A stretch of 58,586 nucleotides of DNA from a virus: positions 1 to 58,586 of the IMG/VR virus record IMGVR_UViG_3300036770_003690. One strand, given 5' to 3'. Shown here in pieces: positions 1 through 47,780 of the stretch. Position 1 is the first letter of the stretch, and the number at the start of each line of letters is the position of its first letter. Position numbers and translations under genes: made by a program. Under the pieces are notes generated by a model. The model worked only from the letters and a program-made list of their open reading frames with translations. It had not been told where the DNA came from and searched no databases.

Positions 1-808
1 CACCAGCAGTAGTGAAGAAATCAAGGATTTCTGAACGGTATGCTGAAGGAACCCAAGCCATTTCGGTGTTACGAACCTTTGGACCAACGGTTACAGTGAA
101 GTCGTCACCTACAGGGAACTGATAGTAGATACGGTCAAGTTCTACAGTATCACCAGTAGTTTCTGCCTTATCCAGTTTGAACAGGGAAGAACTTGAACCA
201 AAAGGTAGTTCACTGAAGTTACCAGCACGAAGACGGGTACGGAGTAGGTCACGACCAGTAAATGAGGTATCAAAGTTCAGACGAACATCATAATTGAATG
301 AGGTTCCATCTGCCTTAGTACCACGACTTTCGTAACCAGGAACACCACCGAGAACAAAGTTTACCTCACCATTCAGTTTGGTAGTGGTGGAGAATTGCTG
401 TGCTTCAAGAACACCAACCTTAGTCTCTAGACCATCTACACGGGCACGAAGAACAATCAGTTCTGCCTTGAATTCTTCCTGAAGTTTACGAATTTCATCG
501 GTGACTTCAGTTACACGGTCAAGGCAAGCATTGAAGAGTGCTGCTGCTTCATAACGGGTCATTGCCTTACCGCCACCAAAAGTGCCGTTAGGATAACCAG
601 CAACGCAACCGTAACGTTCTACAAGATTGCTAAGTGCCTGATATGCCCAATCTGTAGGTTGAACATCAGAGAATTGATTGATACTTGTAACTTGCTCTGA
701 GGTTGAATACTGATTTACTCCTTCCATATTGAGTTCTGCGGCAGTCGCAGAGGGAGCAATCAGACCAACAGCAACAGGTGCAAGCATCAGTTGTTGAAAT
801 AGTTTCAT
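1..808 (-). CDS. SLH-domain outer-membrane porin (iron-uptake porin type), 3' end outside window
   Basis: The frame opens with ATG at 806-808 and runs off the left edge, so about 269 residues are visible. It begins with a signal peptide ending near 'PSATAAE'. An SLH domain follows at about residues 45-97 ('FSDVQPTDWAYQALSNL', 'GYPNGTF', 'MTRYEAAALF'), then a short coiled coil and the first strands of a beta barrel. This order is that of the major porins of marine cyanobacteria (SomA/iron-uptake porin type): the SLH part binds peptidoglycan and the barrel sits in the outer membrane. It has its own promoter at 866-894 and a leader hairpin. A porin inside a phage gene string is unusual; a host origin is inferred. 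An assembly join cannot be excluded because the gene sits at the edge. Confidence 0.85.
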   Translation of the reverse strand, partial: MKLFQQLMLAPVAVGLIAPSATAAELNMEGVNQYSTSEQVTSINQFSDVQPTDWAYQALSNLVERYGCVAGYPNGTFGGGKAMTRYEAAALFNACLDRVTEVTDEIRKLQEEFKAELIVLRARVDGLETKVGVLEAQQFSTTTKLNGEVNFVLGGVPGYESRGTKADGTSFNYDVRLNFDTSFTGRDLLRTRLRAGNFSELPFGSSSSLFKLDKAETTGDTVELDRIYYQFPVGDDFTVTVGPKVRNTEMAWVPSAYRSEILDFFTTAG

Positions 809-856: not shown

Positions 857-865
857 AATATATTT

Positions 866-894
866 AGCATATAACATTTTAAACTATTTGTCAA
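866..894 (-). promoter_or_regulatory. Sigma70-type promoter of porin gene
   Basis: On the minus strand, TTGACA (889-894) is followed by a 17-base spacer and TATGCT (866-871). The start site should lie near 859, giving a leader of about 50 bases for the porin. The -35 box lies just past the end of the upstream small gene (stop at 901). Confidence 0.65.
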
Positions 895-900
895 CCAATT

Positions 901-1311
901 TCATAAAATTCCAAAAGGAAGAGATCCTAATCCTCTACCACCAAGAAGAGGTGATGGTCTTGGAGGAGTGACATTTTGTCTTTCTTTCTTTTCTGCTTTC
1001 AATTCCAACTCATAAATTCTTTCTTCCATAACTTCAATAGAAGCATGAAGATTGGTTAGATAATCAATCAATGATTCTCTATCATCTACTATCTTTTCAA
1101 TCTCTTCACGAAGTTCTTTTTCTTTCTTTTCAACTTCAAGCTGGTCGGCATCAATTAAATTATTTTTTGCCATATAATAATCGGCAATAGCACGGGCATC
1201 ATTTAAGTCTATACCCTCAAGTTCAGAAGATGTTGTATCAACTACTTCTTCAGTTTCTTCTTCAGCATAAGTTATTTGATGAATAACTTCTGTTCTTCTT
1301 TCCTCTTCCAT
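901..1311 (-). CDS. Hypothetical acidic coiled-coil protein
   Basis: I do not recognise this 136-residue protein. It is rich in Glu and Lys, and its middle (about residues 55-112) has heptad-like spacing that predicts a coiled coil. The last 25 residues are Pro/Gly-rich ('PPRPSPLLGGRGLGS'). Its ATG shares a base with the TAA stop of pcyA (TAATG), so the two are translationally coupled, and it is the last gene of the left gene string before the porin promoter. No signal peptide or membrane segment is seen. Confidence 0.6.
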   Translation of the reverse strand: MEEERRTEVIHQITYAEEETEEVVDTTSSELEGIDLNDARAIADYYMAKNNLIDADQLEVEKKEKELREEIEKIVDDRESLIDYLTNLHASIEVMEERIYELELKAEKKERQNVTPPRPSPLLGGRGLGSLPFGIL

Positions 1312-2393: not shown

Positions 2394-5351
2394 TTACTCC
2401 CTAAACATATATTTAACAACGTTTACTGTTTCATCGGATACACATTTCATTTTTTCAACGATTTCTGGAGAAATCAGTTCTGGATGATACCACCAATCTT
2501 CAAATGGACTATTATCATTTGGTGAAACATTTGCGACAAGCATTTCATATCCCATAAGTTTCAGATACTTTCTTGACTTATCACGATAAGAACCAGTCAT
2601 ATCTACATAATGGTCATGTTCATATGTAATGATTCCAAATCTATACTTATCGAATGGCATAGCAAGTAAGCATTCAAAAGTAACTCTTGAGGGTTCAACA
2701 TCCAATTGTAAATAATCAAAGTCAGTTCCCTTATCAAATTTATCTAGAAGTTTTAGATAATCAATCTTGGTCGCATCTTCACAGATAATTTGGTTGTTTC
2801 TTTCTCTTTCAAATTGAGCACAAAGGTCAGGAAGAATTTCAATTGAGATACCGTCCCATCCATATTCTGTCTCAAGCAATGCTGTATTGTTTTGATAGAA
2901 AGGTTGTTGAGCACCAATCTCAAGATACAAACCATTTCTCTTACCATTTGTAGCAGCAAGAATAAACATATCTTGAAATGCCTGAGAATGATTTTTCTCA
3001 ATATTTTCAGAACCATCAAACTTAAAATTAAGTTTTTCGTGCTTATTCTTCTGATACTTAATCACCTCTTCTGGAATATGCCCAGAACCCATCTGCATTA
3101 GATTGTTTTGAACAAGATTATAATGTTGTTCATCAAGTTCATAATTATTCTTGAGGTCTTGAAGAAGTGCTCTTGATTCATCACCTTTTCCCCATGACCA
3201 AGCAGCAAGTGACTTTTCAAAAATTAGACCATACTTTCCTGGATACTCAACATTTGTATGGAGTGGTTGACAATCAAAATCGCAGAATTGTAATGCCCAC
3301 TGACATAGAATATAACAATCTTGCCACCACTGACGTTTTTCACAGAATCTAGCAAGAAGATAATAAGCTTCAGGTCTTGTAGGCATTACACATAATGCTT
3401 GCTGCAATAGACCTTTTGCTGTTGCGTCTCTAGTTCCTTGCCTATCATAAGCATTAGAAGCATGAATTAATGCCTCATAAGCAAGCAAATCATCATCAGT
3501 TCTTTCAGCGCATCTTAAAAAGTATGAAAGTGCTGCTGAATTATGCCTTTCATTTTCATACCAGATTCCAAGATTAAAATTATGCTCTGGATTTTCTGGG
3601 TCCAGGGCATACTTTGTAAGTAGTGTTTCTAATTCTGTTTTTCCAGAAAAGTCAATTGGAGTAACATCCAATTCTCTTGGTTCATTTATTTCTCTAATTT
3701 CAAAAGTCTTTCCCATAAGTTCCTCAATTGTTTTATGAATGCCTTTATCTTTCCACCAATTTATAATGAAGTCGTGAGTAAAGTAATGATTTCTTTTTTG
3801 CCCATCTTTTACATCACCATCATCACCTTCAAATGTTGAGGTAAAATTAATATTCTCTACAAAAAGTGGAATTGTATAGCATTTATGTGTACTGGCAAAT
3901 AGTATATTTTCTATAAGAGGCATTACTTCAGCATCTTTTAATTCAAGATGATAAGTATCACCAACAATATAATTATCTATAATAAATTTAGCATAGTCTC
4001 TTTTGACAATATAAGCAGTTGCTGCCCAATCATCCCAGTATCTTCCACGAATTTTAACATCCTCAAATTCACCACGAATACAAAGTAACTGAACACAATC
4101 CCAATCTTCAGGAAGATTTTCTATAAGTTCATTCCAAGTAAAGTTCCAATAATCGACAGTATCAAAACTTAAATCATCTTCACAGAAAAATCCATACTCT
4201 TGGTCTGTAGTTTCATACCAATCCTTAATTGCTTTTAAGTGAGAAACACAGCAACCTTTTGTACCATCATTTAATTGATAAACATACTTACCTGTTACTA
4301 CATCATCACACTCGGAAAATCTTTTAGAAATGATTGAACGAATATCTTCAACACCATGACTGCTTAGAGTTTCTTCAATATTTTTTTGTCTTTCTTTACT
4401 TTCTTCTAGACTTACATAATAAACTGTTTTTAAACCACTGAGTTTTTTAACTTTCTCTTTTCGGAAAGCATAGTAATTTTGTCCATCCATATTTTGAAGT
4501 TCCCACTCGTAAATTCTTTCAATATAATAATCATCAAGATCAGAAAATAGTCTTTCATTTTCTTGAACGTTCATTTTCGCAAGAAGATATTCATAGTTCC
4601 ATCTATCTGCATCAGATGTATTTGGATCAGAAATTTTTCTCTTTACATTTTCGATATTATTATCATCCGAATCTTCACCGTATCCTTCAAAATTTTCATA
4701 ACGTTTTTTATCTGGGTGAGGTATATGTATTAAAGTATGATTTTGTTCTAATTTTTTACACTCAAGACCCATCATAGTAAGTCTTTTTGTCATTTGATCA
4801 TCTTCAAAAGCATAATACTTACCCATTCTTTCATCATAACCACCAACCTTCCAATAGTTTTCTCTAGTGACAAAACAAAGTCCTGTTAAAAATTTAAAGT
4901 ATGGGCTGTATGAATGGGCATATTTCATTAACTCCCCAACGTCCATCCCATAAAAATTAACGGCATATGCCCCCAAATTTTCATCCCAATATTCATGTTT
5001 ACACTCATACGAGTCTTGACCACATAAGAAAGAATTATTATCAATTAGATAACTTTCAAAAAATGGAAAATATGGATTGATAATATAATCACAATCAAGT
5101 TTAAGAATATAATCTCCAGTGGCAAGACTAGCTGCCAAATTTAATGGTTGTGGTTGGTTAAAATACTTTTCGTTTTCTACACGAATGATTTTAATTCTTT
5201 TATCTAACTTTGTAAGATGGTTGATTGGTTCATCAGAACTCCAATCAACAATAATAATTTCTTTAATTTCATCAAATGCCAACCAAGAATTCAAAGAAAC
5301 TCTTAAAGCATCATAACGATTTTTACAGGCACAAATTACTGATACATTCAT
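2394..5351 (-). CDS. Four-part fusion: GT2 glycosyltransferase - GT25 - TPR - FkbM methyltransferase
   Basis: This 985-residue protein has four parts in order. A GT2-type glycosyltransferase spans about residues 1-225 ('VSVICACKNR', DxD-like 'LDCDY' at 85-89, 'FEDD' near 182). A GT25-type (LPS/collagen) glycosyltransferase spans about 305-560 ('VYYVSLEES', 'GCCVSHLKAI', acidic 'CEDD' at 390-393). A TPR-like helical region follows at about 590-790. An FkbM-type methyltransferase ends the chain at about 810-970 ('SQAFQDMFIL', 'YLEIGAQQP'). I chose ATG 5351 over an upstream TTG at 5363 because it overlaps the upstream gene's stop as ATGA. One chain could add two sugars and a methyl group to one acceptor. 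The acceptor is unknown. Confidence 0.8.
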   Translation of the reverse strand: MNVSVICACKNRYDALRVSLNSWLAFDEIKEIIIVDWSSDEPINHLTKLDKRIKIIRVENEKYFNQPQPLNLAASLATGDYILKLDCDYIINPYFPFFESYLIDNNSFLCGQDSYECKHEYWDENLGAYAVNFYGMDVGELMKYAHSYSPYFKFLTGLCFVTRENYWKVGGYDERMGKYYAFEDDQMTKRLTMMGLECKKLEQNHTLIHIPHPDKKRYENFEGYGEDSDDNNIENVKRKISDPNTSDADRWNYEYLLAKMNVQENERLFSDLDDYYIERIYEWELQNMDGQNYYAFRKEKVKKLSGLKTVYYVSLEESKERQKNIEETLSSHGVEDIRSIISKRFSECDDVVTGKYVYQLNDGTKGCCVSHLKAIKDWYETTDQEYGFFCEDDLSFDTVDYWNFTWNELIENLPEDWDCVQLLCIRGEFEDVKIRGRYWDDWAATAYIVKRDYAKFIIDNYIVGDTYHLELKDAEVMPLIENILFASTHKCYTIPLFVENINFTSTFEGDDGDVKDGQKRNHYFTHDFIINWWKDKGIHKTIEELMGKTFEIREINEPRELDVTPIDFSGKTELETLLTKYALDPENPEHNFNLGIWYENERHNSAALSYFLRCAERTDDDLLAYEALIHASNAYDRQGTRDATAKGLLQQALCVMPTRPEAYYLLARFCEKRQWWQDCYILCQWALQFCDFDCQPLHTNVEYPGKYGLIFEKSLAAWSWGKGDESRALLQDLKNNYELDEQHYNLVQNNLMQMGSGHIPEEVIKYQKNKHEKLNFKFDGSENIEKNHSQAFQDMFILAATNGKRNGLYLEIGAQQPFYQNNTALLETEYGWDGISIEILPDLCAQFERERNNQIICEDATKIDYLKLLDKFDKGTDFDYLQLDVEPSRVTFECLLAMPFDKYRFGIITYEHDHYVDMTGSYRDKSRKYLKLMGYEMLVANVSPNDNSPFEDWWYHPELISPEIVEKMKCVSDETVNVVKYMFRE

Positions 5352-6190
5352 AGTGAAATCCAATGAGGCAATCTTAATTCTTTAGAGTCTAAATGTAAGT
5401 AGTCGGATGAAAACCAATTTTTAGGACAAATAGTTTTTTCACTCTTTGCCAACCAAGATCCCCACCAACTATATGAACTGTTAGCAATAATATGATAGTT
5501 ACAAAGAGACATTAAACACAAATCAATGTAAGTATTATTACTTTTCATCATTATAAATCTATTACTATTAAAAATATTTTGAGACTCACACCATTCAATA
5601 TCATCTGAAAATACTAAAACTGGAATTGAACAATCAAATTGAGACAAAGAATTTTCATAATATTCCAAAGAAAGAGTATTTAAAACAGAAGATTCTAGAT
5701 AATCTGTCCTTCTTATATGTAGTGCTATAGTTTTTGACTCAGAAAATATTTCATTAAAATAAGATTTACATATTTTACTATAATTTGATTTGAAAGTAAA
5801 TATTTTCCGAAGATCATTTTCTACATTTTTAAAATAATTATAATTTTGGAAAAATCCAAAAATACTTTTATTATCATGATTTGTATTAAAAAATTGATTA
5901 TCAAAATTAGTATTTAAAAGATTGTCCCACTGATCATGATTATTTAAAATCAATACAGTATGATTATCTTTAATTGTAACTTCATTCCCCAGATTATGTG
6001 CTCCTACAAAATCTGGATTATAATAAGATTTAATTTTATTTGGTATATTAAAGCATTTGTATAATTCCAAATTCGTTTTACCTATTGAAAAATCAATTCC
6101 ATGTTTTTTCGATATTCCAACCAAAGCAGCATATTGGAACATTTGATTTCCAAGTCTTCCAAGATACCCAAGATGAGGAAAAGTAATCAT
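5348..6190 (-). CDS. Alpha-1,2-fucosyltransferase (GT11), copy 1
   Basis: A 280-residue GT11 enzyme, expected to transfer L-fucose from GDP-fucose in alpha-1,2 linkage. The family N-terminus 'GRLGNQMFQYAAL' is at about 11-23. The donor-binding motif 'HIRRTDY' is at 158-164, and the C-terminal 'ANSSYSWWGSWLA' is present. It overlaps both neighbours by ATGA junctions (6187-6190 and 5348-5351), so it is co-translated with the two large fusions. GDP-fucose would come from the gmd/fcl genes at 44409-46335. It is clearly diverged from copy 2 (43616-44422), suggesting a different acceptor. Confidence 0.85.
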   Translation of the reverse strand: MITFPHLGYLGRLGNQMFQYAALVGISKKHGIDFSIGKTNLELYKCFNIPNKIKSYYNPDFVGAHNLGNEVTIKDNHTVLILNNHDQWDNLLNTNFDNQFFNTNHDNKSIFGFFQNYNYFKNVENDLRKIFTFKSNYSKICKSYFNEIFSESKTIALHIRRTDYLESSVLNTLSLEYYENSLSQFDCSIPVLVFSDDIEWCESQNIFNSNRFIMMKSNNTYIDLCLMSLCNYHIIANSSYSWWGSWLAKSEKTICPKNWFSSDYLHLDSKELRLPHWISL

Positions 6191-8367
6191 TGCCCTAAAA
6201 ATTTATACAAACAAAGACCAACAGAATCAGAACTTTGAACTCCTTCCAAAATTTCAACAGGTTGCCAAACTAAAGAATTAGATTCAATATACCTTCTAAT
6301 TTTTAATGATTTTGTAGAAGTTTGCCCATCATATTTTCTAGGAACTACTTCCCAATCATGCATCGAAAAATAGCATCCTGGTTGAATATATTTTTCTAAA
6401 GCAATAATATCTCTCATAGCAACATCAGGATCTTCTGGTCCATCAAAAAATAGATAATCAATTTTTATATTATTTTCAATAAGATATAAAATTAACTCAT
6501 TAGAATAAATTGGTCTATAATCTACATTTTTTTGCTTTTCTAGAAATTCTTCAGATGGACCTCTTCCGGGATCGCAAGAATAAACTTTTCCAAGAGATTT
6601 ACATTTTTTCATTCCCTCAGAAATATAATAAGTTCCTCCACCAGTTCCACATCCTATATCCAGGACATTACTTGGTTTTATAATTTCAGATACCCAAGTA
6701 TATAATTTATATCTTTCATAAGGAAGCATTTCAACTCCAGGATATATTTCCTCCAAATTATAATTAAGTTCTGGATTAATGTGCCAAGTAAATCTTTCTG
6801 TATTCTTACAGTGAATATGAAGATTTGCTAGTGGATATTTTTCTCCATTCTTTTCAACATATGGTTTGGTATTTACAATCATAGGAGTTAAAATACCCTC
6901 ACCAATTTCTCTACCAACGACATGGTGATTTCCATACCACCCAGGAGGATGCCCATTATTTGTTCCCCCTAGATATTGACCATAAGATGAAGGGTCAAAT
7001 ACGATTCCATTTTCATTTGGAAATACATCCAATCTCTTTATTAGATCAGGTCTTCTTTTATAAATTCCTCCAAGAAGTTGCATTTCATTTGGCATGATTG
7101 ATGCATATTCTTTTTGTTTTTGTTCATCAAACACTATTTCACACAGAATATTACAAATCTCATCTATCTTATTAATATCTCCAAATTTTGAAAACCCAAA
7201 TACTACTTCATCTTCTGTATGGTATGTAATGGATAATCCATCAGAATCATTTATTAAATGTTCAAATTTTGAAGAGGGTTCAAATAGTAAAACATCAGAA
7301 TCAAAATGATAGCAATTTTTTAAATTCAAATATTTTATGCAATCTCTCACAAGAAAAACTCTAAAAATTGATGTTCTCCAAAGAACATTATCATCTTCAC
7401 TAAACAAACTCATATTTAAAACTTTTAAAGTTTGTTCAGATGCTATATCATAAATTTTTAAAATTTCTACACCATCAATTTCTATACTTTGATCTGTAAT
7501 CAAAATCAATCTAGCAGAAGGTTCTACTTCATAAATGCTTCTAAAAGAATCTATGAGATAAGAAGGAACTTTTCCTAAATGGCAATGGACGTAATTTGAC
7601 ATAATTAATGACTCGTAATTTTCTCGTAAATATGCATGGCAAGATACAAAATCAAGATTTTTATCTAACAAATTTAAATCTGGAAGATAAGAAATATTTT
7701 CCCAAAACAATTGTCTTTCTTCACACATTTCAGGATGATTAATAATAATATAGTTAGAATATAAATCCCATTCACTTAAAGAAGAAATTTCATTATAATC
7801 TATAGAACTTAAAACACAATCAAAAAATGAATTAGACTTAAAACGTTTTTTAACATTTTCTATCATCTCATTTAATATGTTTTTATTAAAAATCATATGA
7901 TGAGAAATAGTTGAAAATCCGATTGTTTTTTCTAATCCTAATATTTTTTTGATTGAAGTTATATAAGGAAGATGATATTCATCTGCTACACAATAATAAA
8001 ATTTATTAGGATCAAATAAAATAGGTTTAAGAAATATTGTATCAGAATCAACAATTACATATGAATCTGTTAGTTGAGGAATAACTTTTGCAGAAAATAA
8101 TTTTAAAAATTGCTGATAAATCCAACCACTTCTGTAAGAATACTGTGGATTATAATACTCAAAATTTTTTACTATTTTTTGAATATCAATATATTCTTTA
8201 TAATTATTTTCTGGAATATAAGTTATTCCTTTAATATTTGGATTTTTATTTGATACAACATAAATGTTATTCAGATTAAAAATATTCTTTTTAATCCCGT
8301 CTATACATAAACCTAATGAATGAAAATCTTTTTCATGACAAGGAATTAAGCAGTCAAGTTTGATCAT
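6187..8367 (-). CDS. Fusion of two glycosyltransferase-like domains and a class I methyltransferase
   Basis: A 726-residue protein. Residues about 1-265 resemble the DUF6492/GT-A type of nucleotide-sugar transferase ('LDCLIPCHEKD', 'YVIVDSDTIFLKP'). Residues about 265-530 form a second GT-A-like domain ('YHFDSDVLLFEP', 'NEMQLLGGIY'). Residues about 545-726 are a Rossmann methyltransferase ('NVLDIGCGTGGGTY', 'DYLFFDGPED', 'FSMHDWE') of the CmcI/macrocin O-methyltransferase kind. Both DxD motifs are intact, so both transferase domains may be active. It overlaps the FkbM gene upstream by 14 bases and the fucosyltransferase downstream by 4. Substrates cannot be read from sequence. Confidence 0.72.
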   Translation of the reverse strand: MIKLDCLIPCHEKDFHSLGLCIDGIKKNIFNLNNIYVVSNKNPNIKGITYIPENNYKEYIDIQKIVKNFEYYNPQYSYRSGWIYQQFLKLFSAKVIPQLTDSYVIVDSDTIFLKPILFDPNKFYYCVADEYHLPYITSIKKILGLEKTIGFSTISHHMIFNKNILNEMIENVKKRFKSNSFFDCVLSSIDYNEISSLSEWDLYSNYIIINHPEMCEERQLFWENISYLPDLNLLDKNLDFVSCHAYLRENYESLIMSNYVHCHLGKVPSYLIDSFRSIYEVEPSARLILITDQSIEIDGVEILKIYDIASEQTLKVLNMSLFSEDDNVLWRTSIFRVFLVRDCIKYLNLKNCYHFDSDVLLFEPSSKFEHLINDSDGLSITYHTEDEVVFGFSKFGDINKIDEICNILCEIVFDEQKQKEYASIMPNEMQLLGGIYKRRPDLIKRLDVFPNENGIVFDPSSYGQYLGGTNNGHPPGWYGNHHVVGREIGEGILTPMIVNTKPYVEKNGEKYPLANLHIHCKNTERFTWHINPELNYNLEEIYPGVEMLPYERYKLYTWVSEIIKPSNVLDIGCGTGGGTYYISEGMKKCKSLGKVYSCDPGRGPSEEFLEKQKNVDYRPIYSNELILYLIENNIKIDYLFFDGPEDPDVAMRDIIALEKYIQPGCYFSMHDWEVVPRKYDGQTSTKSLKIRRYIESNSLVWQPVEILEGVQSSDSVGLCLYKFLGQ

Positions 8368-9010
8368 TTATATAAGTCCAAAGTTTTTCTCTTCCAGATA
8401 CTGTAACTTCATGATAATCATATTTTGTTAACAAGTTTTCAATAAGATCTACAGAAGGAATATCTCCATCAATAAGACCATATTCAAATTGAACAAAAGT
8501 TATCTTTTTTTGCTCCAAAAGTTTTTTTGCCCCAAGAAGTATTTTATACTCTGCTCCTTCAGTGTCAATTTTTAGATAATCAATTTTATCTAGTTGATAC
8601 TCTTGAAAAAGAGTATCAAGTTTTTTACATTCAACTTCCTTAAGATTTAATGGTTCACCTTTAAAATCTTCCCTAATATAAAAACTAGAAAGAACATGTC
8701 TCTGACCGGGAAAGAATAAAAATTCTGATCCATCTTTATCTGATAAAGCAATCTTTAAAAGATCAACTCTGCTATCATTACCCCATCTTTCTTCAAATTT
8801 CTCCCAATGCATAGGTTCTATTGCTATGCATTTTGATTGAGGAAACTTTTCCAAAAAAAGAAAAGTAAAATCATCATTCCAATTTTCAATCCATTCAACA
8901 TTTCCCATTTCAATAATAGGGTTAATATTACACCCCACATCAAACACAACTGGGTTATTTGGTAAGTAATTTAACACACTTTGAATGCATTGCCTATAAT
9001 CAAAGCTCAT
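8354..9010 (-). CDS. FkbM-family SAM-dependent methyltransferase
   Basis: A 218-residue protein with FkbM hallmarks: motif I 'VVFDVGCNINP' near residue 20, 'CIAIEPMHW' near 65, and 'VECKKLDTLF' followed by 'DYLKIDTEGAEYKIL' near 140-160. FkbM enzymes O-methylate sugars and other small hydroxyl substrates. Here a sugar of the phage-directed glycan is the likely target, from the neighbouring glycosyltransferases. ATGA overlap with the methyltransferase upstream (9007-9010) and a 14-base overlap with the fusion gene downstream show tight coupling. Confidence 0.82.
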   Translation of the reverse strand: MSFDYRQCIQSVLNYLPNNPVVFDVGCNINPIIEMGNVEWIENWNDDFTFLFLEKFPQSKCIAIEPMHWEKFEERWGNDSRVDLLKIALSDKDGSEFLFFPGQRHVLSSFYIREDFKGEPLNLKEVECKKLDTLFQEYQLDKIDYLKIDTEGAEYKILLGAKKLLEQKKITFVQFEYGLIDGDIPSVDLIENLLTKYDYHEVTVSGREKLWTYINDQT

Positions 9011-9600
9011 AGTTGTGAATTTTCAATAAGTGATACTTCTTTTTCACCAGAATTAAATAGGTGCTTTATATTATACTTTTTAAGAGGAAAAAACTTACAG
9101 GAAAGAGGTCTATTTCTTTCTGGTGTATCTTGCCAATCTTTTTCTTGTGGTGAGCTATTAGTTATCAGTATAAACTTAAAGTTATTTACAACCTCATCTA
9201 AAAATGCAGTTATTTCTTCATTTCTCCAATGTTGCAAAACATCTTTTATGAGCAAAAGATCACCTTTATTTTTATAAAATTTTTCAGTATCTTTTAAATA
9301 TAAAAATTTTATATTATCACTCTTATAATCTTTATTGTTATTATCAATAACTGATTTTACTACATCTACACCAGTATATTTAACAGAAGACCAATCAATT
9401 AGTCTACTAAATGTCCAATCTCCACATCCAAAATCATACACTCTTTTAATATTTTTTTCAATAAGAAATTTCTGTAGAAATTCTCTATATTCAATTGTGT
9501 TTTGTGGTAAAGATCCTCCACCACTTCCACATTCACCACCCCATCCACCACCGGCATAGATTTTACTAAAATGCTCATGATGATCACTAAAATTTGTCAT
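9007..9600 (-). CDS. Class I SAM-dependent methyltransferase
   Basis: A 197-residue protein with a Rossmann SAM-binding motif 'VYDFGCGDWTFSRLI' at about 54-68, an acidic motif II 'YTGVDVV' and 'LLLIKDVLQHW' at the motif-III position. The Gly-rich N-terminus ('AGGGWGGECGSGGGS') precedes the fold, as in several phage methyltransferases acting in glycan clusters. A good Shine-Dalgarno (AGGAG) lies about 9 bases before the ATG. It overlaps the FkbM gene by ATGA. Substrate unknown. Confidence 0.75.
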   Translation of the reverse strand: MTNFSDHHEHFSKIYAGGGWGGECGSGGGSLPQNTIEYREFLQKFLIEKNIKRVYDFGCGDWTFSRLIDWSSVKYTGVDVVKSVIDNNNKDYKSDNIKFLYLKDTEKFYKNKGDLLLIKDVLQHWRNEEITAFLDEVVNNFKFILITNSSPQEKDWQDTPERNRPLSCKFFPLKKYNIKHLFNSGEKEVSLIENSQL

Positions 9601-9613
9601 TTAAATTCTCCTA

Positions 9614-10588
9614 TTAACTTACAATAAATTTCCAAACTAATTCTTTATTTACTCTTAAAAGATATGAAGCATTATCCTGAAATCCAAAGGTAATCAAATA
9701 ATCTTCTTTGTATTCCGTCATACCAACAGCAAATTCAATCTCTCCTTCTAAAAAGGAAAACTGTGGAGATACTTGAACAATATCCCAGTCCTTATCCCAG
9801 ACAATAAATCTATGTCTGTAAATTCCATCCTTACGGTCTTGTTCACTACGAGTTAAATAAGTCTCGTGACATAATGTAATATGACCTTCACCAAAAGGAA
9901 GAACTTGAGAACCTCCACGTAAATCAATACATCCCAAATCTTTCCAGTGCTTTAAAGCAACTTGTTTCGTAGTATTGGTTTCAATATCATAATGGACTAC
10001 TTCTGTACCATTTGTCCACTTAACAAAGTGATAAGGCATATCTATAATAGGCATCCAATTCTTTTCACAATAAGAATCATTTGCTCCTGGAGTTGGAATA
10101 CGGTGTTGAGATATTTCTTTTACATATCCATTATTAATTTCTAGTTCTGATAGTTCCATTCTACCAGTTCCAATAGTATCTAGGTCTCTTCTTACCCCAC
10201 AAATATAAAGTTTACCATCCCAACGAACAATACGAGCATCTTCTAATCCAACAAATTCCCATAGTTCTTTATCAGGGAAGTTGGAAGTATCAATGTGATG
10301 ATACCATTTTAGTTGCATATTTTCATCATACTCGCACATAATATTCTTTGTACGAAGCTTCCAATCATTCTCGGGATGAATATAAACTAAAGGACCCCAA
10401 GGATGTTCGTATTTTTTCTTTTCCGAATGATATAAAGTATAATTGATATTCCTTAAATTAACTAATATTTTATCTCCATCCAAATAAATTGATGGATTAG
10501 TTAAAGATGGTCCTTTTAGATCAGAGGAAGGAATGAGTAGTGGATGTATTGAACCACCATTTTCTATACAATGTTTTACAAAGTTCAT
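9614..10588 (-). CDS. Beta-propeller protein resembling GH43/GH130-type glycosidases
   Basis: This 324-residue protein has the repeated W/D-rich strands of a five-bladed propeller: 'GPSLTNPSIYLDGDKILVN', 'FVGLEDARIVRWDGKLYIC', 'NWMPIIDMPYHFVKW'. 'GLEDARIV' resembles the 'EDPR' region of GH130 mannoside phosphorylases, but the family assignment is by eye only. A role in trimming or binding the glycan made by the neighbouring genes is an inference. No signal peptide. It follows the collagen-like fibre gene after an 87-base gap and heads the left glycan string. Confidence 0.55.
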   Translation of the reverse strand: MNFVKHCIENGGSIHPLLIPSSDLKGPSLTNPSIYLDGDKILVNLRNINYTLYHSEKKKYEHPWGPLVYIHPENDWKLRTKNIMCEYDENMQLKWYHHIDTSNFPDKELWEFVGLEDARIVRWDGKLYICGVRRDLDTIGTGRMELSELEINNGYVKEISQHRIPTPGANDSYCEKNWMPIIDMPYHFVKWTNGTEVVHYDIETNTTKQVALKHWKDLGCIDLRGGSQVLPFGEGHITLCHETYLTRSEQDRKDGIYRHRFIVWDKDWDIVQVSPQFSFLEGEIEFAVGMTEYKEDYLITFGFQDNASYLLRVNKELVWKFIVS

Positions 10589-10675: not shown

Positions 10676-13600
10676 TTATATCTTGTCAATACCCAAGTAT
10701 TTCTTAAGAACTTCAATTTGTATTTGCTGCTCCTTTACAGCTTCTATAAGAACTGCTATGATACCATTGTAATTAACTGTCTTTGTATTATTTTCGGTAA
10801 CTAATTCAGGTAGAACTTGTTCAATTTCTTGAGCAATAACTCCTAAAGATGGATTATTATTATCTTTCCATCTGAATTTGACACCATTAATATTTTCAAT
10901 TATTTCAATTGCATTTTCAATCTTGTTAATATCTTTTTTCTGAGTTATATCAGATAGTGAATTGAATATAGTCGCAGATAAAGTTCCAGAGGAAGGATTA
11001 TATTCAAGTTTTGTAGATGATGTATTAACAGCAGTAATTGTTCCGGAAGTTTGATCACCAAAAAGAACATATCGAGTTGAGTTTGTAGAAGTGTCATTTG
11101 TTACATTAATTGCTGATCCAGTTCCAGCAGCACCTTGATTTCCTTGATTACTTAAACCTTGGAGACCCTGAGCACCTTGTCTTCCTTGGGCACCCTGAGC
11201 ACCTTGTCTTCCTTGGTTACCTTGGTTACCTTGAAGACCTTGAGCACCTTGTCTTCCTTGGTTACCTTGGTTACCTTGAAGACCCTGATTGCCTTGGAGA
11301 CCTTGATTACCCTGACTTCCTATACCTTGGTTACCTTGTACTCCTTGATTACCTTGATTTCCTTGAAGACCTTGATTTCCTTGTCTTCCTTGAGCACCCT
11401 GAGCACCTTGTCTTCCTTGGTTACCTTGGTTACCTTGAAGACCCTGATTGCCCTGAAGACCCTGATTGCCCTGACTTCCTATACCTTGGTTACCTTGTAC
11501 TCCTTGATTACCTTGATTTCCTTGATTACCTTGTACTCCTTGATTCCCTTGACTTCCTATACCCTGACTACCTTGCAATCCTTGATTACCTTGATTTCCT
11601 TGAAGACCTTGATTTCCTTGTCTTCCTTGGGAACCCTGAGCACCTTGTCTTCCTTGGTTACCTTGATTTCCTTGTAATCCTTGGTTACCTTGATTTCCTT
11701 GATTACCTTGGAGACCTTGATTTCCTTGATTACCTTGGAGACCTTGATTTCCTTGATTACCTTGGAGACCTTGATTTCCTTGATTTCCTTGATTGCCTTG
11801 TAAACCTTGATTACCTTGAACACCTTGATTACTTAATCCTTGGTTTCCTTGTCTTCCTTGGGCACCCTGAGCACCTTGTCTTCCTTGGTTACCTTGATTT
11901 CCTTGTAATCCTTGGTTACCTTGATTTCCTTGATTACCTTGGAGACCTTGATTTCCTTGGATACCTTGGTTACCTTGATTTCCTTGATTTCCTTGGAGAC
12001 CTTGATTTCCTTGATTACCTTGGATACCTTGGTTACCTTGATTTCCTTGATTTCCTTGGAGACCTTGATTTCCTTGATTACCTTGGAGACCTTGGTTACC
12101 CTGATTTCCTTGATTACCTTGAACACCTTGATTACTTAATCCTTGGTTTCCTTGGACCCCCTGGTTACCTTGTCTTCCTTGTGTTCCCTGAAGACCCTGA
12201 TTACCTTGTCTTCCTTGTAATCCCTGAAGACCTTGGTTTCCTTGGTTACCTTGTAATCCTTGATTGCCTTGGTTACCTTGATTTCCTTGGAGTCCTTGAT
12301 TACCTTGGAGTCCTTGATTTCCTTGGTTACCTTGGAGTCCTTGATTTCCTTGGTTACCTTGGAGTCCTTGATTTCCTTGATTACCTTGTAAACCTTGGTT
12401 ACCTTGATTACCTTGGAGACCTTGAACTCCAGACTTAGTAAATGTAATTGCTAACTCAAGATTATTTGCTGGAAGTGTTCCTGAAATATGAGTTACTGGA
12501 ATCTTGTAATACCCTGCTGCTACCGTAACTGTTCCAGTTACCCTAAAGACATTAACTGTATTTTGAGAACTGTTAGCAGAAGTTATGTATAAGTAACCTC
12601 TATCACTAAAAATAGTATCATCCCAAGTATCATACCAACCAGTTTGAGTATTTCCAAGTGAATCTAAGTTGTCAATATAAATTTGTGTTACAGATCCAAT
12701 AGTCGCATTATTATATCTTAAGACTCCATTTCCTGGATCAGCATCAGTAACTGTAGTTGAGAATGTATAAGGAACTCCACCACGGTTACCAATGTTTCCT
12801 TGGAGTCCTTGTAAACCTTGTAAACCTTGATTTCCTTGGAGACCTTGGTTTCCTTGGTTACCTTGTAAACCTTGATTACCTTGATTACCTTGGTTGCCTT
12901 GTAGACCTTGATTACCTTGTCTTCCTTGGAGACCTTGGAGACCCTGATTTCCTTGGTTACCTTGGAGTCCTTGATTACCTTGATTACCCTGATTTCCTTG
13001 GAGACCTTGGTTACCTTGTCTTCCTTGGAGACCTTGGAGACCTTGATTTCCTTGGTTACCTTGTAATCCTTGATTTCCTTGGAGACCTTGATTACCTTGA
13101 ACACCTTGAGTTCCTGATAAGGAATAACTTAAGAAAACTCCTTCACCATTTGTTAAACTTCCATTTGAACTTATTAATGAAATTTGAAGACTTGACCATC
13201 CAGCACTACCTGAAGATTGAGTAGTTATATTTTGTAGTTCATATAATCCATATCTTGAGGGATCACCTGTTGCTTGTAACTTAATTAGACCTCTCTTATT
13301 AGGAGATCCATAAGTTTGTAGTAAACTGTAAAGTGTGGATAGGTCAGTTAGATAACGATCTTGGTGATCGACAAAAATTTGTGTAGCAGTACTTAATGAT
13401 CCATTAAGTCTTAAAAATGTGCTTCCTGGATCTGCTTGTGTTGTAGTTGAAGAATAGAAATATTCAAGAGTATTTTCAGCATTAATTCCAGTTATACCTT
13501 GATTACCTTGATTACCTTGTAATCCTTGATTTCCTTGTCTTCCTTGTGTTCCTTGTAATCCCTGGTTTCCTTGGTTACCTTGGAGACCTTGATTTCCTTG

Positions 13601-16600
13601 ATTGCCTTGTAACCCTTGATTACCTTGGAGACCTTGATTTCCTTGATTACCTTGAAGTCCCTGATTTCCTTGATTACCTTGTAAACCTTGGTTACCTTGT
13701 CTTCCTTGGGTTCCTTGTAATCCTTGATTACCTTGATTGCCTTGTAACCCTTGATTACCTTGGAGACCTTGATTTCCTTGATTACCTTGGAGTCCTTGAT
13801 TTCCTTGGTTACCTTGTAAACCTTGGTTACCTTGTCTTCCTTGGGTTCCTTGTAATCCTTGATTACCTTGATTACCTTGTAGACCTTGATTACCCTGTAA
13901 ACCTTGATTTCCTTGGTTACCTTGGAGTCCTTGATTTCCTTGGTTACCTTGTACTCCCTGAACTCCAGATTTAGTAAATGTAATTGCTAACTCAAGATTA
14001 TTTGCTGGAAGTGTTCCTGAAATATGAGTTACTGGAATTCTATAATATCCTGTTGCTGCTGTTACTGAACCTGTAATTTGGAATACGTTTACTGTATTTT
14101 GAGAACTGTTAGCAGAAGTAATATACAAATATCCTCTGTTACTAAAAACAGTATCATCCCAAGTATCATACCAACCAGTTTGATTGTTACCTAAAGAATC
14201 AATATTATCAATATAAATCTGAGTTACAGATCCAATAGTCGCATTATTATATCTTAAGACTCCATTTCCTGGATCAGCATCAGTAACTGTAGTTGAGAAT
14301 GTATAAGGAACTCCACCACGGTTGCCAATGTTTCCTTGGAGACCCTGTAGACCTTGGTTTCCTTGGAGACCTTGGTTTCCTTGGTTACCTTGTAAACCTT
14401 GATTACCTTGATTACCTTGATTACCTTGTAATCCTTGATTACCTTGGAGACCTTGATTTCCTTGCCTTCCTTGATTTCCTTGGAGACCCTGATTACCTTG
14501 ATTACCTTGTAAACCTTGATTGCCTTGGTTACCTTGGTTACCTTGTAAACCTTGATTACCTTGTCTTCCTTGGGTTCCTTGTAATCCCTGATTACCTTGA
14601 TTACCTTGTAGACCTTGATTGCCCTGTAAACCTTGGTTTCCTTGATTGCCTTGAAGACCTTGGTTTCCTTGGTTACCTTGATTGCCCTGTAATCCTTGGT
14701 TACCTTGATTACCCTGTAATCCTTGGTTACCTTGATTACCTTGGAGACCTTGATTACCTTGATTACCTTGGAGACCTTGATTACCTTGGTTACCTTGGTT
14801 ACCTTGTACTCCCTGAACTCCAGATTTAGTAAATGTAATTGCTAACTCAAGATTATTTGCTGGAAGTGTCCCTGAAATATGAGTTACTGGAATTCTATAA
14901 TATCCTGTTGCTGCTGTTACTGGACCAGTAACTCTAAAGACATTAACTGTATTTTGAGAACTGTTAGCAGAAGTTATGTATAAGTAACCTCTATCTGAAA
15001 AAACAGTATCATCCCAAGTATCATACCAACCAGTTTGGGTGTTACCTAAAGAATCAAGGTTATCAATATAAATTTGTGTTACTGATGAAATAGTTGCATT
15101 ATTATATCTCAGAATACCATTTCCTGGATCAGCATCAGTAACTGTAGTTGAGAATGTATAAGGAACTCCACCACGGTTACCAATGTTTCCTTGGAGACCC
15201 TGTAGACCTTGGTTTCCTTGGAGACCTTGATTACCTTGTCTTCCTTGATTACCTTGGAGACCTTGGTTTCCTTGGTTACCTTGTAAGCCTTGATTTCCCT
15301 GATTACCTTGGAGTCCTTGATTACCTTGTAATCCTTGATTTCCTTGATTACCTTGGAGTCCTTGATTACCTTGATTACCTTGTAAACCTTGGTTACCTTG
15401 TCTTCCTTGATTACCTTGTAAACCTTGGTTTCCTTGATTGCCTTGAAGACCTTGGTTTCCCTGTCTTCCTTGGTTACCTTGGAGACCTTGATTGCCTTGT
15501 AAACCTTGATTGCCTTGATTGCCTTGGTTACCTTGTAATCCTTGGTTGCCTTGGAGGCCTTGATTACCTTGGTTTCCCTGCAATCCTTGATTGCCTTGAT
15601 TTCCTTGATTTCCCTGTAAACCTTGATTCCCTTGTAATCCTTGGTTTCCTTGATTGCCTTGGAGACCTTGGTTTCCCTGTCTTCCTTGGTTACCTTGTAA
15701 TCCTTGATTACCTTGATTGCCTTGGAGACCCTGATTACCTTGGTTACCTTGTAATCCTTGATTACCTTGATTTCCTTGGAGACCTTGATTACCTTGATTT
15801 CCTTGGAGACCCTGAACACCTTGAACCCCAGATTTTGAAAACCCTACTGTTAATAAGTTATTATTTGTAGGAATTGAACCAGAAATATAATCTACTGGTA
15901 TTACATAGTAACCAGATTGAATTGATACTACACCATTAACTCTAAAAACATTTGCAGTAGAACTTGAACTATCAGCAGAAGTTATATAAAGATACCCTCT
16001 ATCACTAAAAACAGTATCATCCCAAGTGTTATACCAACCAGTTTGATTGTTACCTAAAGAATCAAGATTATCAATATAAATTTGTGTTACAGATCCAATA
16101 GTCGCATTATTATATCTTAAGAAACCATTTCCTGGATCAGCATTAGTAGTAGAAGAACTAAAAGTGTAAGTAATTCCGCCACGATTACCAATGTTTCCTT
16201 GTAGACCTTGTAGACCTTGATTTCCTTGAAGACCTTGATTGCCCTGATTTCCCTGCAAACCTTGGTTTCCTTGATTTCCTTGGAGTCCTTGGTTTCCTTG
16301 TAATCCCTGATTACCTTGGTTTCCTTGTAATCCCTGATTACCTTGTAATCCCTGATTACCCTGTAATCCTTGGTTTCCTTGATTTCCTTGGAGTCCTTGG
16401 TTTCCTTGTCTTCCTTGATTTCCCTGTAGACCTTGGTTTCCTTGATTTCCCTGTAGACCTTGGTTTCCTTGATTACCTTGGTTACCTTGGAGTCCTTGAT
16501 TACCTTGGAGACCTTGGTTACCTTGATTACCTTGGAGACCTTGATTACCTTGATTTCCTTGGAGACCTTGATTACCTTGTAATCCTTGGTTACCTTGTCT

Positions 16601-19600
16601 TCCTTGGAGACCTTGTAATCCCTGATTTCCCTGAAGTCCTTGATTACCTTGGAGACCTTGTAATCCTTGAACTCCAGACTTTGTGAAAAATACTGTTACT
16701 TCTTGATTATTATTTGGAAGATTACCTGTCAAATAATTAACAGGAATTGTATAATAGGTTGTATTATTTCCTATAACTCCAGTTACTTCAAATACCGCAG
16801 TTACATTTGTGGAACTATCTGCAGAAGTAATGTAGATATATCCACGATTCAGTCCTACATTTAGAATGGTGTCATCCCAAGTTTCATACCAACTACCTTG
16901 ATTGATACCAAATTCATCAGTATCATCAAAATACATTTGAGTTACTGAAGAAATAGTTGCATTATTGAATCTTAATCTTCCTTGTCCTCCAGAACCTGCT
17001 GTAACTGTGGTATCAAATAAGTAAGGAATACCTCCACGATCACCAAGCATTCCTTGGAGACCTTGATTTCCTTGTAGACCTTGGAGACCTTGGTTACCTT
17101 GATTACCTTGTAAACCTTGATTTCCTTGTCTTCCTTGATTTCCCTGAAGACCTTGATTACCTTGTAATCCTTGATTGCCTTGATTACCTTGATTACCTTG
17201 TAATCCCTGATTTCCTTGGAGACCTTGGTTACCTTGATTACCTTGTAAACCTTGATTTCCTTGTCTTCCTTGATTTCCCTGAAGACCTTGATTACCTTGT
17301 AATCCTTGATTGCCTTGATTACCTTGATTACCTTGTAATCCCTGATTTCCTTGGAGACCTTGGTTACCTTGATTACCTTGTAAACCTTGATTGCCTTGAT
17401 TACCTTGGTTACCTTGTAATCCCTGATTTCCTTGGAGACCTTGGTTACCTTGATTTCCTTGGAGACCTTGGTTACCTTGATTCCCCTGTAATCCTTGATT
17501 TCCTTGGAGACCCTGCAATCCTTGATTACCTTGTCTTCCTTGGAGACCTTGAAGACCTTGATTGCCTTGATTGCCCTGTAAACCTTGATTACCTTGTACG
17601 CCTTGTAAACCAGCTAAACCAAAACTTATGTAAAGTTCTTCATTATTAACAAATCCATCTCCTGCGGCAACAGCATTTCCTAATTCAAATGTGCTCCATC
17701 CAGTTTCTCCGAATACTTCTTCAGTGAGAAGAATAATTGTAAAGACATAAAAATTAGTAGGATCACCTATGGATTGAATTTTAATAAAACCTTTATTACC
17801 CGGAGATCCATATTCATTAACTAAAGTGAAAAATTCACTTAAATCAATACCATCTTTGTCTTGGTGATCAAGATATAACTCTGTTGAATTTTCAATAGTT
17901 GAATTGTTAAAACGAATAAATCCTGATCCTGGATCTGCAGATACAGTAGAAGTGCTAAACAAATATTCAAAAGTATTTCCTGCACTAACACCATCAATTC
18001 CTTGGAGACCTTGAACACCTTGTAATCCTTGATTTCCTTGGAGTCCTTGGTTACCTTGTAAACCTTGGTTACCTTGGTTGCCTTGTAGACCTTGGTTTCC
18101 TTGGAGACCCTGAAGGCCCTGATTTCCTTGGTTGCCTTGTAAACCTTGGTTTCCTTGGAGACCCTGAAGGCCCTGATTTCCTTGGTTTCCTTGTAAACCT
18201 TGGTTTCCTTGGAGACCTTGATTACCTTGGAGACCTTGATTACCCTGTAATCCTTGGTTTCCTTGGAGACCTTGATTACCTTGGAGACCTTGATTACCCT
18301 GTAATCCTTGGTTTCCTTGGAGACCCTGGAGACCCTGATTTCCTTGGTTTCCTTGTAAACCTTGATTTCCTTGGTTTCCTTGTAAACCTTGATTTCCTTG
18401 GTTGCCTTGTAAACCTTGGTTTCCTTGGTTTCCTTGGAGACCTTGATTACCTTGGAGTCCCTGGAGACCCTGATTCCCTTGGTTGCCTTGTAAACCTTGG
18501 TTTCCTTGGAGTCCCTGGAGACCCTGATTCCCTTGGTTGCCTTGTAATCCTTGGTTTCCTTGGAGACCCTGGAGACCTTGTGTTCCCTGAACACCAGATT
18601 TTGTAAAGAGTAAAGCTAATGCATCTGTATCATTTGGGAGACTTCCAGAAACATAATCAACAGGAATTCTGTGATATCCACTTTCAATTGTAATTGGAGA
18701 TTTAGTTCTAAAGATATTAATAATTGTATTTTGAACATCTGCAGATACAATATACAAATATCCTCTATCACTAAATTCAGTATCATCCCAAGTATCATAC
18801 CAAGCACCTTGGTTATTACCTAAAGAATCAAGATCATCAATATAAAGTTCAGTTACTTGTGTAATATCTGAGTTATTATATCTTATTAAACCTGGACCTG
18901 GATCTGAATTTGTAGTAATATTATCAAAATTATAAGGAACACCTCCACGATTTCCACTTGTACCTTGAAGTCCTTGCAATCCTTGATTGCCTTGAAGACC
19001 TTGTAATCCTTGATTGCCCTGTAAACCTTGGATACCTTGTAATCCTTGATTACCCTGTAAACCTTGGAGACCTTGTAATCCTTGGTTTCCTTGGAGTCCC
19101 TGGAGACCCTGATTTCCTTGATTACCTTGTAATCCTTGGTTTCCTTGGAGTCCCTGGAGACCCTGATTTCCTTGATTACCTTGTAATCCCTGATTTCCTT
19201 GGAGACCTTGATTTCCTTGTAGACCTTGGTTTCCTTGGAGACCTTGAAGACCTTGGAGACCTTGGAGACCTTGAAGTCCTTGTAAACCTTGATTGCCCTG
19301 TAAACCTTGATTGCCCTGTAAACCTTGGTTACCTTGGTTACCTTGGTTACCTTGTAATCCTTGGTTACCTTGTAATCCTTGATTGCCCTGGAGACCTTGG
19401 TTTCCTTGGTTACCTTGATTACCTTGTAATCCTTGATTGCCCTGGAGACCTTGGTTTCCTTGGTTACCTTGTAATCCTTGATTGCCCTGGAGACCTTGTA
19501 ACCCCTGGAGACCTTGTAAGCCTTGTAAACCCTGATTACCTTGGTTGCCTTGTAAACCTTGTAACCCCTGGAGACCTTGTAAACCTTGTAAACCTTGTAA

Positions 19601-25235: not shown

Positions 25236-28200
25236 TTACTCTCCTCCTAATGCTAGAATGAATGGGGTTAAGGTTGAGAACAAGCTCTTAGAATAAGATG
25301 TTCCAGAAATTGTTCCAGTATTTTGGTTAATAATCAATCCATCACCAATCTTGAAGTTACCTGACTGGTCAGTGCTTGTGTAAACTACTAGTCCACCATT
25401 TACACTGATTGTTTGATTTTCAGGTTTAGTAACTCCACCATTCTGTGGAAGAGCACCTTTAACATCAGTTCCAGCACCAATGAATTCAAATGAAATACCA
25501 GCAGCAAGAATTCTACTTTGCTTGTAGAAGTAAACAGGCATTCCTTCAGTAACTTCATATGGAATTTGAGTATCAAATGTTACTGTTGAAACTCCAGCAG
25601 ATGGTAAAGTTGCTTTAGAAACCGTATAGTATACAGGTGCCATTTCAACTGTCACTCTTGCTTGAGTTCCACCAGAAGGAGGGGCAGAGATTGAAACGGT
25701 AGGAGGAACAATAAATCCTCTACCACTAGACACAACCTCAACAGAAACAACTCTACCGTCTTCAACGGTTGCAATTGCCTGAGCAGGAACTCCCCAATCT
25801 GTAGTTGGACCTCCAAGTGTAACTTCTGGAGTATCTGTATATCCACTTCCCCCATTAGTAACATTAATCTTATTCACCTGATAATATAGTTTATCAAATA
25901 CTGCAACTTGTCCATCAAATGGTCTTACTGCATTAATCTGAACAGTTCCACCAGAAGTATAATAGTGTGGGAATGGACCAGCACCAACGTTAGCAGTAAA
26001 GAAAGTGCTTGCTGCTGATACTGCTACAGTTGTAGCAGTTCCTGCGATAATTGCTTCAGTTGCAATTCCAATCAAGCTGTCAATAGTATCTTGAACATTC
26101 TGACATCCTTCTGGGGAATTATTTGATCCGGTAAGAGGATCTTCAACAAGTGAGAAGTTCTTATTATTCAGTTGATTATTAATAGCAAGTTGCATATAAT
26201 CGCCAGAAGCACGGAATGCTGTTACAGTCTCTGCTTCCTCACCAACAAGAGCATCGGAGAGTGGATTTCCAAAAGCATCAAAGTAGTAGTTAGTTGCCTC
26301 AATTGTATTTGCGTTGGTGAAGTTTTCTAAGTCCTTAGAAACCGCATCAACAAAGTATCCAATATCTCTTCTACACTTAGCTTCTTGGTCAAGGAATCCA
26401 CCAACATTAACAGTGACACCATCAAGTGCTGTGAGAGTTCCAATTCCGATTACAGAAGTAATAATTCCAACTCTGTTATCAACAAAGTCCTGAACATCCT
26501 GACAAGTTTCAGCATTTCCAGATCTATTATAAACAATGTCTGGAGTAGAAGCACCGTAAACAGCAGGACCAAATGATAATGTTAGATCCTTGGCATAAAG
26601 TTGATTTGTCAATGCTCTCTTCATATAATCTCCAGCAGCATCAAATGCTGTTACAGATTCTGCTCTTTCAACATCAAGACCTGGGGCAATAGGATTACCT
26701 TGCTCATCAAAGTATTGCTTAGCAAACTCAATTGAGTAAGTATTTCCACCAACAAATACATCAGTAGAAACAGCATCAACAAGATAACCAATGTCTCTAG
26801 CACACTTATAACCACCTGGGGAACTGGTAGTTCCTAACCCAACTAAATCCCCTGCCGTAGTTCCAAATCCAACAGTCTGATTGAATTCCCCAAGAGTCTG
26901 ATAGAAGAATCCACTGCTGATTCCGATTGAACCATCATAAAGGGCAGCAGTATTTCCTGCTCCGATTACGGTAGTAATAATTCCAACGAGAGTTTCAATG
27001 TTGCCCTGAACATCTAGGCAAGTTTCAGCATTGCCAGAGGCATTGTAAGTTACAATTCCAACTCCACCAAAACTAGAAGGACCAAATGAGAGAGTTAGGT
27101 CTTTTCTGTAAAGTTGGTTAGTAATTGCCTTCTGCATCAATCCAGTAGAAGATTCAAATGCAGTTAGTGAAGGTAGTTCCTCACCAGCCAGACCACCTCT
27201 GATTGGGGTTCCATCGGCATTGTAATACTGCTCTGAGAATCCTCTAGAGTAGACATTACCACCAGTAAATACGTCGGTAGAAACGGCATCTACGAGGAAT
27301 CCAAGGTCTCTAGCACACTTATAACCACCTGGGTTCTCAGTAGTTCCAATACCAGAAGTTCTATCGAAGATTCCAGTATTATACTCTAGACCTGAGAATG
27401 AAGCAGTGCTTCCTGCTCCAAGAGCAACTGTTACGATACCAACCAAGTTGTCAACTTCGTCCTGAACATCTAAACAAGATGCTTCATTTCCTGAAGGAAG
27501 AACAGGAATGGAAGTACCAGCACCAGCATAATATGCCTTACCTGAAGAAATGCCAACATCCTTTCTGTAAAGTTGATTAGTAAGAGCATCCTTCATAAAT
27601 TCACCAGCACCTACCAATCCAATAACTGTTGGATGTACTTCATCCCCATCAATGTAAATTGCTCCACTGTTATCAAAGTACTGGAGGGTATATTCTTGAG
27701 AATACTTATTGCCAGCAATAAAGATATCGGTTGATACTGCGTCGATGAAGAAACCTACGTCTCTAGCACACTTATAACCACCTGGAGTATTTGTAGTTCC
27801 AAGACCAACAGATTGTGAGAAGTAACCATCTGTGACTGAAGGTAGAGAAGCAGTGCTTCCTGCTCCAAGAGCAACGGTTACGATACCAGCAAGAGTATCA
27901 AGATTGTCTTGAATATCAAGGCAAGCAGTTGGGTCTGTATTTGGAACGTCAGAACCGACGTTGTAGTAGGTTCCACCGATTGAAATTGTTAAGTCTGAAT
28001 ATGCGGCACCAACCAGTGAGTTGGTAATCGCATTCTTCATATAACCAGTTGCTGCCTCAAATACGAAGATTGATTCATTGATTTCACCATCAAGACCATT
28101 TGTGATTAATGAACCACCTTCAAAGTATTGGAATGTGAACTCTCTTGAATAGGTATTTCCACCAGTAAGAGCATCGAGTGAAATAGCATCAATGAAGAAT

Positions 28201-47316: not shown

Positions 47317-47390
47317 TCGGGCATAAAGGATTTGAACCTTTGACCTTCCCGCCCCAAACGGGACGCGCTACCAAACTGCGCTAATGCCCG
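47317..47390 (-). tRNA. tRNA-Pro(TGG), copy 1
   Basis: Cloverleaf with acceptor CGGGCAT, D arm GCGC/GCGC, anticodon loop TTTGGGG and T loop TTCAAAT. It reads CCN proline codons. Behind a promoter with a duplicated -10 region (47402-47450). A second Pro(TGG) gene is at 49627-49700. Confidence 0.9.
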
Positions 47391-47400
47391 GTATATTATA

Positions 47401-47440
47401 TATCATATCAAATGCTACATTATCATATCAAATGCTACAT
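47401..47440. repeat. Exact 20-base tandem duplication over a promoter
   Basis: Bases 47401-47420 and 47421-47440 are identical. Each copy carries an ATCATA block, which reads TATGAT on the minus strand, so the -10 box of the tRNA-Pro promoter is duplicated. Confidence 0.9.
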
Positions 47441-47450
47441 TTGATGTCAA
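47422..47450 (-). promoter_or_regulatory. Sigma70-type promoter of tRNA-Pro
   Basis: Minus-strand TTGACA (47445-47450), 17-base spacer, TATGAT (47422-47427). The duplicated second TATGAT at 47402-47407 would place a start near 47395, close to the tRNA 5' end at 47390, but has no good -35 box. Confidence 0.75.
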
Positions 47451-47641: not shown

Positions 47642-47780
47642 TGCTTAAAAATTTATTCATAGGATCTTTTTTGGATTTTACAATTTCACAAGCTCTTTTG
47701 TAAAAGGCATTATCAAGATTTCCAGATTCTTCAAAAATTTGTTTTATTTTTACCCAGTTGGCGTAAGTATGATCGTCCAT
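47634..47780 (-). CDS. Very small phage protein (48 residues)
   Basis: ATG at 47780 opens a 48-residue frame ('MDDHTYANWVKIKQIFEESG', ending 'KKDPMNKFLSNG'). It overlaps the next gene by eight bases (ATGGATAG), which supports real translation. Short proteins with a 'YANWVKIK' start and a Lys-rich end are, from memory, common in T4-like cyanophages; function unknown. No Shine-Dalgarno is obvious. Confidence 0.65.
   Translation of the reverse strand: MDDHTYANWVKIKQIFEESGNLDNAFYKRACEIVKSKKDPMNKFLSNG

Follow-up and report, generated by a model that had tools for sequence, protein, structure and literature searches.

A host-derived SLH porin of cyanophages, frequently paired with pstS, as a possible aid to phosphate uptake by infected cells

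Why would a cyanophage encode a pore for the outer membrane of its host? The question is raised by the left edge of IMG/VR record IMGVR_UViG_3300036770_003690, a linear fragment of 58,586 bases (here, the window) whose ribonucleotide reductase genes, 29 predicted tRNA genes and many glycosylation genes are in keeping with a large cyanophage. At this edge lies the 5′ part of a porin gene (Table 1). Next to it is a series of genes for glycosyltransferases and methyltransferases, some of them seemingly fusions (989 and 726 aa), at 2394-10588 on the minus strand; in many relatives similar genes stand ahead of the porin. A bilin reductase gene (1311-2012, minus) matches best PcyA, the phycocyanobilin:ferredoxin oxidoreductase (258 bits, cut-off 206). 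The protein encoded immediately upstream of the porin has a homologue that also precedes an outer-membrane barrel gene in other cyanophages (L163, L171, L177). Farther along the minus strand are two very long open frames (10676-22351, 3891 aa, and 25236-34013, 2925 aa) and the tRNA genes, predicted with ARAGORN (47317-51259; one anticodon uncertain).

The porin frame opens with an ATG at 808-806 and remains open to the left edge, so that the gene is truncated after 269 codons, as the first-pass annotation had recognized. The succession of signal peptide, SLH domain, coiled coil and barrel start described there was borne out by Pfam, by reading of the translation and by the model of a relative. 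The N-terminus, MKLFQQLMLAPVAVGLIAPSATAA, resembles a signal peptide as judged by eye; the Pfam OprB profile matches residues 107-244 of the fragment (E 1.9e-12); and the fragment passes the cut-off of the NCBIfam family NF033921, ‘iron uptake porin’ (245 bits, cut-off 100; E 1.4e-72), which, along with the SLH and OprB matches, upholds the earlier description of a phage porin of cyanobacterial type. PHROGs contained no family matching the fragment. The closest relative, on contig L005, is 96% identical to the fragment and full-length at 487 residues, with an OprB match spanning residues 107-487 and a match to NF033921 over the full length (318 bits, cut-off 100; E 1.2e-94). Its structural model (pLDDT 82) comprises an SLH domain, a coiled coil and 16 strands, the barrel strands beginning at residue 142. 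Thus, the layout typical of NF033921, i.e., SLH domain, coiled coil and a barrel of porin size, is represented by the SLH domain in the window and by the stalk and 16 strands in the model of the relative, the window itself covering strands 1-5 only.

Table 1. Features at the left edge of the window (positions in the window)
Feature	Position	Strand	Basis
SLH/OprB-type porin gene, 5′ part, 269 codons, cut by window edge	2..808	-	Reading frame, profile matches, full-length relative
Signal peptide, residues 1-23	740..808	-	Read by eye from the translation
SLH domain, residues 46-89	542..673	-	Pfam PF00395, E 1.1e-9
Coiled-coil stalk, residues 104-138	395..499	-	Helices 104-112 and 114-138 in the model of the 96%-identical relative, same numbering
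Barrel start, strands 1-5 and most of the constriction loop, residues 142-269	2..385	-	Pfam OprB, model of the relative, loop signature
Leader sequence GTCGTTTAGTACTAAAA	820..836	-	Common to S-SRM01 and other phage porins
Leader hairpin TTCTTGGG-ATTGA-CCCAAGAA	838..858	-	Fold z-score -4.8; 0/200 shuffles as stable
CTAAATA, resembling a T4-like late promoter element, overlapping the -10 box	861..867	-	Conserved upstream of relatives; putative role
Sigma70-type promoter TTGACA-17-TATGCT	866..894	-	10/12 consensus positions
Upstream neighbour, no assigned function	901..1311	-	Homologue search in cyanophages

Foldseek searches with the model of the L005 protein retrieved OprB, OmpF-like porins and the SLH porin OmpM1 of Veillonella parvula (8bym, 8byt, 8bys). 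OmpM1 is likewise an SLH-tethered porin, matching in sequence in the SLH domain and stalk and in fold in the barrel, but it is a host protein of a diderm Firmicute and its barrel is only 12-14% identical. Through the full-length L005 copy, family membership is shared with Slr1908 and related SLH/OprB porins of Synechocystis. The dN/dS of the window porin is 0.11 against the L005 copy and 0.12 against that of contig L007 (median over phage pairs, 0.26), values indicating that the porin is under purifying selection overall.

The separate sigma70-type promoter noted in the first-pass annotation also stands. A related, extended form of it, running into TAAATA, was found in the upstream regions of 25 of 58 distinct phage porins and of none of 72 host porins, which makes the promoter more than a chance match. 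The leader sequence occurs in no fixed frame and is therefore probably untranslated; a further ATG, at 838-836, was considered as the start and rejected in favor of 808 because in S-SRM01, among others, the corresponding leader does not keep the reading frame. Leader hairpins of differing sequence but similar position precede many phage porins (e.g., L012, L035, L044) and may steady or regulate the mRNA. No other viral contig was found to carry a hairpin identical to that of the window. A Pho box (CTTA-N7-CTTA) is absent upstream of the window porin, a point against a phosphate role, and present in 5 of the 58 phage upstream regions; in phages, however, such boxes are reportedly hard to predict with confidence (PMC10976474).

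A search of phage genomes for SLH porins, as the first-pass annotation had proposed, was productive. Among 50,697 phage records, the isolate S-SRM01, present under two accessions, encodes a relative of the whole fragment (QPX48248.1; 74% identity over 269 residues), a full-length phage SLH porin of the same clade and with the shared leader; in S-CREM1 and S-PM2, the match is confined to the SLH part. In IMG/VR, relatives of the window porin are found on 361 contigs, and many of them, like that of S-SRM01, are flanked on both sides by phage genes. The surrounding genes in the loci examined encode lysozyme, C39 peptidase, Hli, Dps and glycosyltransferase, and the porin is single-copy in each of 20 records searched. 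One phage-type porin followed by hli (L086 3998-6242) is found in a genome bin labelled Microbacteriaceae and is probably a mis-binned phage contig.

The phylogeny indicates that the phage porin is host-derived: in the careful tree, the 14 phage rows, covering all phage copies sampled, form one clade (100/100) within a group that includes host porins (100/99). Given also a dN/dS of ~0.11, the porin has the hallmarks of a host-derived auxiliary gene. Among the 28 host rows, i.e., the host members of this group plus the sister L114, 22 lie directly before or beside pstS (~120-340 bases) or futA (~90 bases or less), 3 more are tandem copies next to partners of the pstS/futA type, and one further tandem pair precedes a ferritin gene. 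By comparison, none of 18 general host porins with good flanks (L270-L278) has a pstS or futA partner. Among solved structures, the nearest to FutA is an iron-binding protein (E 3e-92). The constriction loop signature of the phage porins, RNTE..AYKS..LDFF..AGAPGVYNKATG, is that of the host group linked to binding proteins and unlike that of other host porins. The freshwater Cyanobium and Synechococcus porins that precede pstS or futA thus share with the phage proteins both the domains and the loop signature, and the phage clade is nested inside them; they differ in being host genes, in having a slightly longer barrel (median 364 residues versus 353 in phages) and in that no extended promoter form was found before them. 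An initial sampling of hosts had suggested a clade linked to pstS only, a view abandoned when wider sampling yielded futA-linked members and the ferritin-linked pair. In one genome (G161), two closely related porins are encoded at L266 5284-6867 and L267 5024-6622, one before futA and the other before pstS; together with the mixing of pstS- and futA-linked porins on the tree, this suggests that the partner changes faster than the pore. The tree leaves the exact attachment of the phage clade among host porins ambiguous, and the host group is futA-linked as well as pstS-linked, both of which weigh against a phosphate role.

In phages, by contrast, of these two partners only pstS is found beside the porin. 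Of the 69 phage porin loci that extend far enough to reveal it, 27 carry the gene directly downstream, within 1.2 kb (for distinct porins, 19 of 51), and each of the 8 pstS genes detected across 20 porin-bearing records adjoins the porin; none of the porin-bearing phage loci examined contains futA or futB. These counts come from relatives, given that the downstream gene of the window porin would lie past the left edge. Phage pstS has at least two origins, suggesting repeated recruitment to the position next to the porin. However, the majority of phage porin loci are without an adjacent pstS, and the phage loci are not independent, so that lineage or habitat may account for part of the association. 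Dps, within 3.5 kb of the porin in 28 of 61 loci, is the other recurrent neighbor. Even among close relatives of the window the combination varies: hli but no pstS lies near the porin of L005; in L007 (porin 88% identical), pstS and Dps are both present; pstS is missing altogether from the nearest large record (G001; porin 80% identical); and the S-SRM01 genome lacks pstS but carries Dps near the porin, to which the S-SRM01 paper assigns no function.

A natural control is provided by the putative S-layer protein of S-PM2 (p168) and its relatives, present in 362 viral contigs. These proteins occupy the same genomic place as the porin, beside hli or Dps, and resemble it in combining an SLH domain, a coiled coil and an outer-membrane barrel, but the model comprises an SLH domain, a helical stalk and a barrel of 8 strands (pLDDT 69, a modest confidence; L171 4495-5355, L279-L358), as opposed to 16. 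Judging from this model, the ‘S-layer protein’ is probably a tethered outer-membrane protein rather than an S-layer component. The window porin does not conform to the short, 8-strand type, its relative having 16 strands, and the two proteins were never found together in the loci examined. In other cyanophages, the same place is taken by small proteins of ~120-140 aa that resemble outer-membrane barrels (L163 4511-4933, L177 4626-4991). The two kinds of locus differ sharply in pstS, which adjoins the S-PM2-type protein in 1 of 75 loci compared with 27 of 69 for the porin (p = 2e-9; by distinct sequences, 1 of 55 versus 19 of 51, p = 2e-6) and is absent from 16 S-PM2-type records searched. Dps is about equally frequent at both (24 of 75 versus 28 of 61, p = 0.11). 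Thus, pstS tracks the pore, whereas Dps tracks the genomic position.

The presence of pstS directly after the porin gene in many related viruses suggests that the porin probably helps infected cells take up phosphate. More specifically, we favor, with belief and doubt about evenly balanced, a scenario in which a host-derived porin made during infection speeds the diffusion of phosphate to PstS. The signal peptide would direct the porin to the periplasm and the barrel would insert into the outer membrane of the host, with the SLH domain, on its coiled-coil stalk, presumably binding the peptidoglycan layer; the 16-strand pore would then add to the small-ion channels of the cell. Incoming phosphate would be caught by PstS, phage-made where the gene is present and otherwise supplied by the host, and would feed phage DNA synthesis, to the likely benefit of the phage. 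The net charge of inward-facing pore residues, assigned by strand alternation, is +9 in phages, +10 in pstS-linked hosts and +8 in other hosts, a weak hint, from modeling, of anion preference. Phosphate clearance by Synechococcus is reported to be limited by porin-restricted diffusion (PMC7250820), and in Prochlorococcus a P-stress porin and PstS rise together (PMC3349580). In S-PM2, which is without pstS, low phosphate raises the expression of an hli gene and of the gene adjoining that of the SLH protein (PMC10976474); this is a sign, by analogy and not as direct evidence for the porin, that the region around the porin's place can respond to phosphate.

Iron uptake, the role implied by the family name, would have the porin pass inorganic iron to the host FutA, with phage Dps, where present, storing iron or limiting its damage. 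Slr1908 has been described as iron-selective (PMC11126600, PMC8707739), several host relatives stand ~90 bases before futA with one host pair preceding ferritin, and Dps lies near many phage porins. Nonetheless, the reported selectivity of Slr1908 is not the best fit to the gene context in phages: futA and futB are missing from the porin-bearing phage loci examined, and Dps, found about as often next to the S-PM2-type protein, is a feature of the genomic place rather than of the pore, which removes it as evidence for iron. We therefore regard an iron role as improbable. Of the suggestion in the first-pass annotation of altered nutrient or iron uptake, the nutrient part is the best-supported role, and phosphate fits better than iron with the pstS counts, the absence of futA and futB and the distribution of Dps. 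Still, these roles need not exclude one another, since the pore may conduct small ions generally.

No more probable than iron uptake is the possibility that the protein serves mainly to anchor the outer membrane to peptidoglycan as protein synthesis in the host breaks down, with the pore secondary. SLH domain, stalk and outer-membrane barrel are, indeed, the shared part of the proteins at this genomic place, where the S-PM2-type protein, never found together with the porin, has a modeled 8-strand barrel too small for a porin. Furthermore, OmpM1 both tethers and conducts (PMC10628300), and Synechocystis releases more vesicles on loss of Slr1908 (PMC8707739). Tethering, however, accounts neither for the conserved constriction loop nor for the preference of pstS for the 16-strand over the 8-strand form.

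Less likely again is a change of the cell surface, whereby masking, dilution or replacement of a receptor by the new protein would hinder other phages or grazers. A surface role, raised also in the first-pass annotation, was suggested earlier for the SLH protein of S-PM2, whose transcripts are reported to rank among the earliest and most abundant (PMC2984593), and a long glycosylation cluster adjoins the window porin gene. Identity among phage porins falls to 40-58% in several outer loops, compared with 83% in the constriction loop, but outer-loop variation is general among porins, the protein as a whole is under purifying selection, and the pstS pairing would be left unexplained. Finally, the chimeric assembly feared in the first-pass annotation, with host DNA joined to a phage contig, is very unlikely despite the position of the gene at the contig edge and a leader hairpin without an identical counterpart, given the 361 viral contigs, the single phage clade, the promoter form unseen at host porins, and the S-SRM01 relative with phage genes on either side.

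In the literature searched, mostly outside subscription journals, the role of phage-encoded porins is undiscussed, the S-SRM01 gene being annotated only as ‘porin’; within the same scope, the porin-pstS pairing, the descent from binding-protein-linked host porins and the interchange with the 8-strand SLH protein seem to be undescribed. Taken one step further, and with correspondingly less confidence than the phosphate role itself, the pairing may represent a portable phosphate uptake module of two parts, an outer-membrane porin and PstS, carried by cyanophages at a place where outer-membrane proteins are exchanged and overcoming the limit that diffusion through porins sets on phosphate entry into infected cells.

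Phage pstS is a long-known gene, but its product acts behind the outer membrane. If porin-limited diffusion restricts phosphate, a virus bringing its own porin would be acting at the bottleneck itself. The 16-strand porin and the 8-strand SLH protein are two natural alternatives at one place, which can be compared by experiment.
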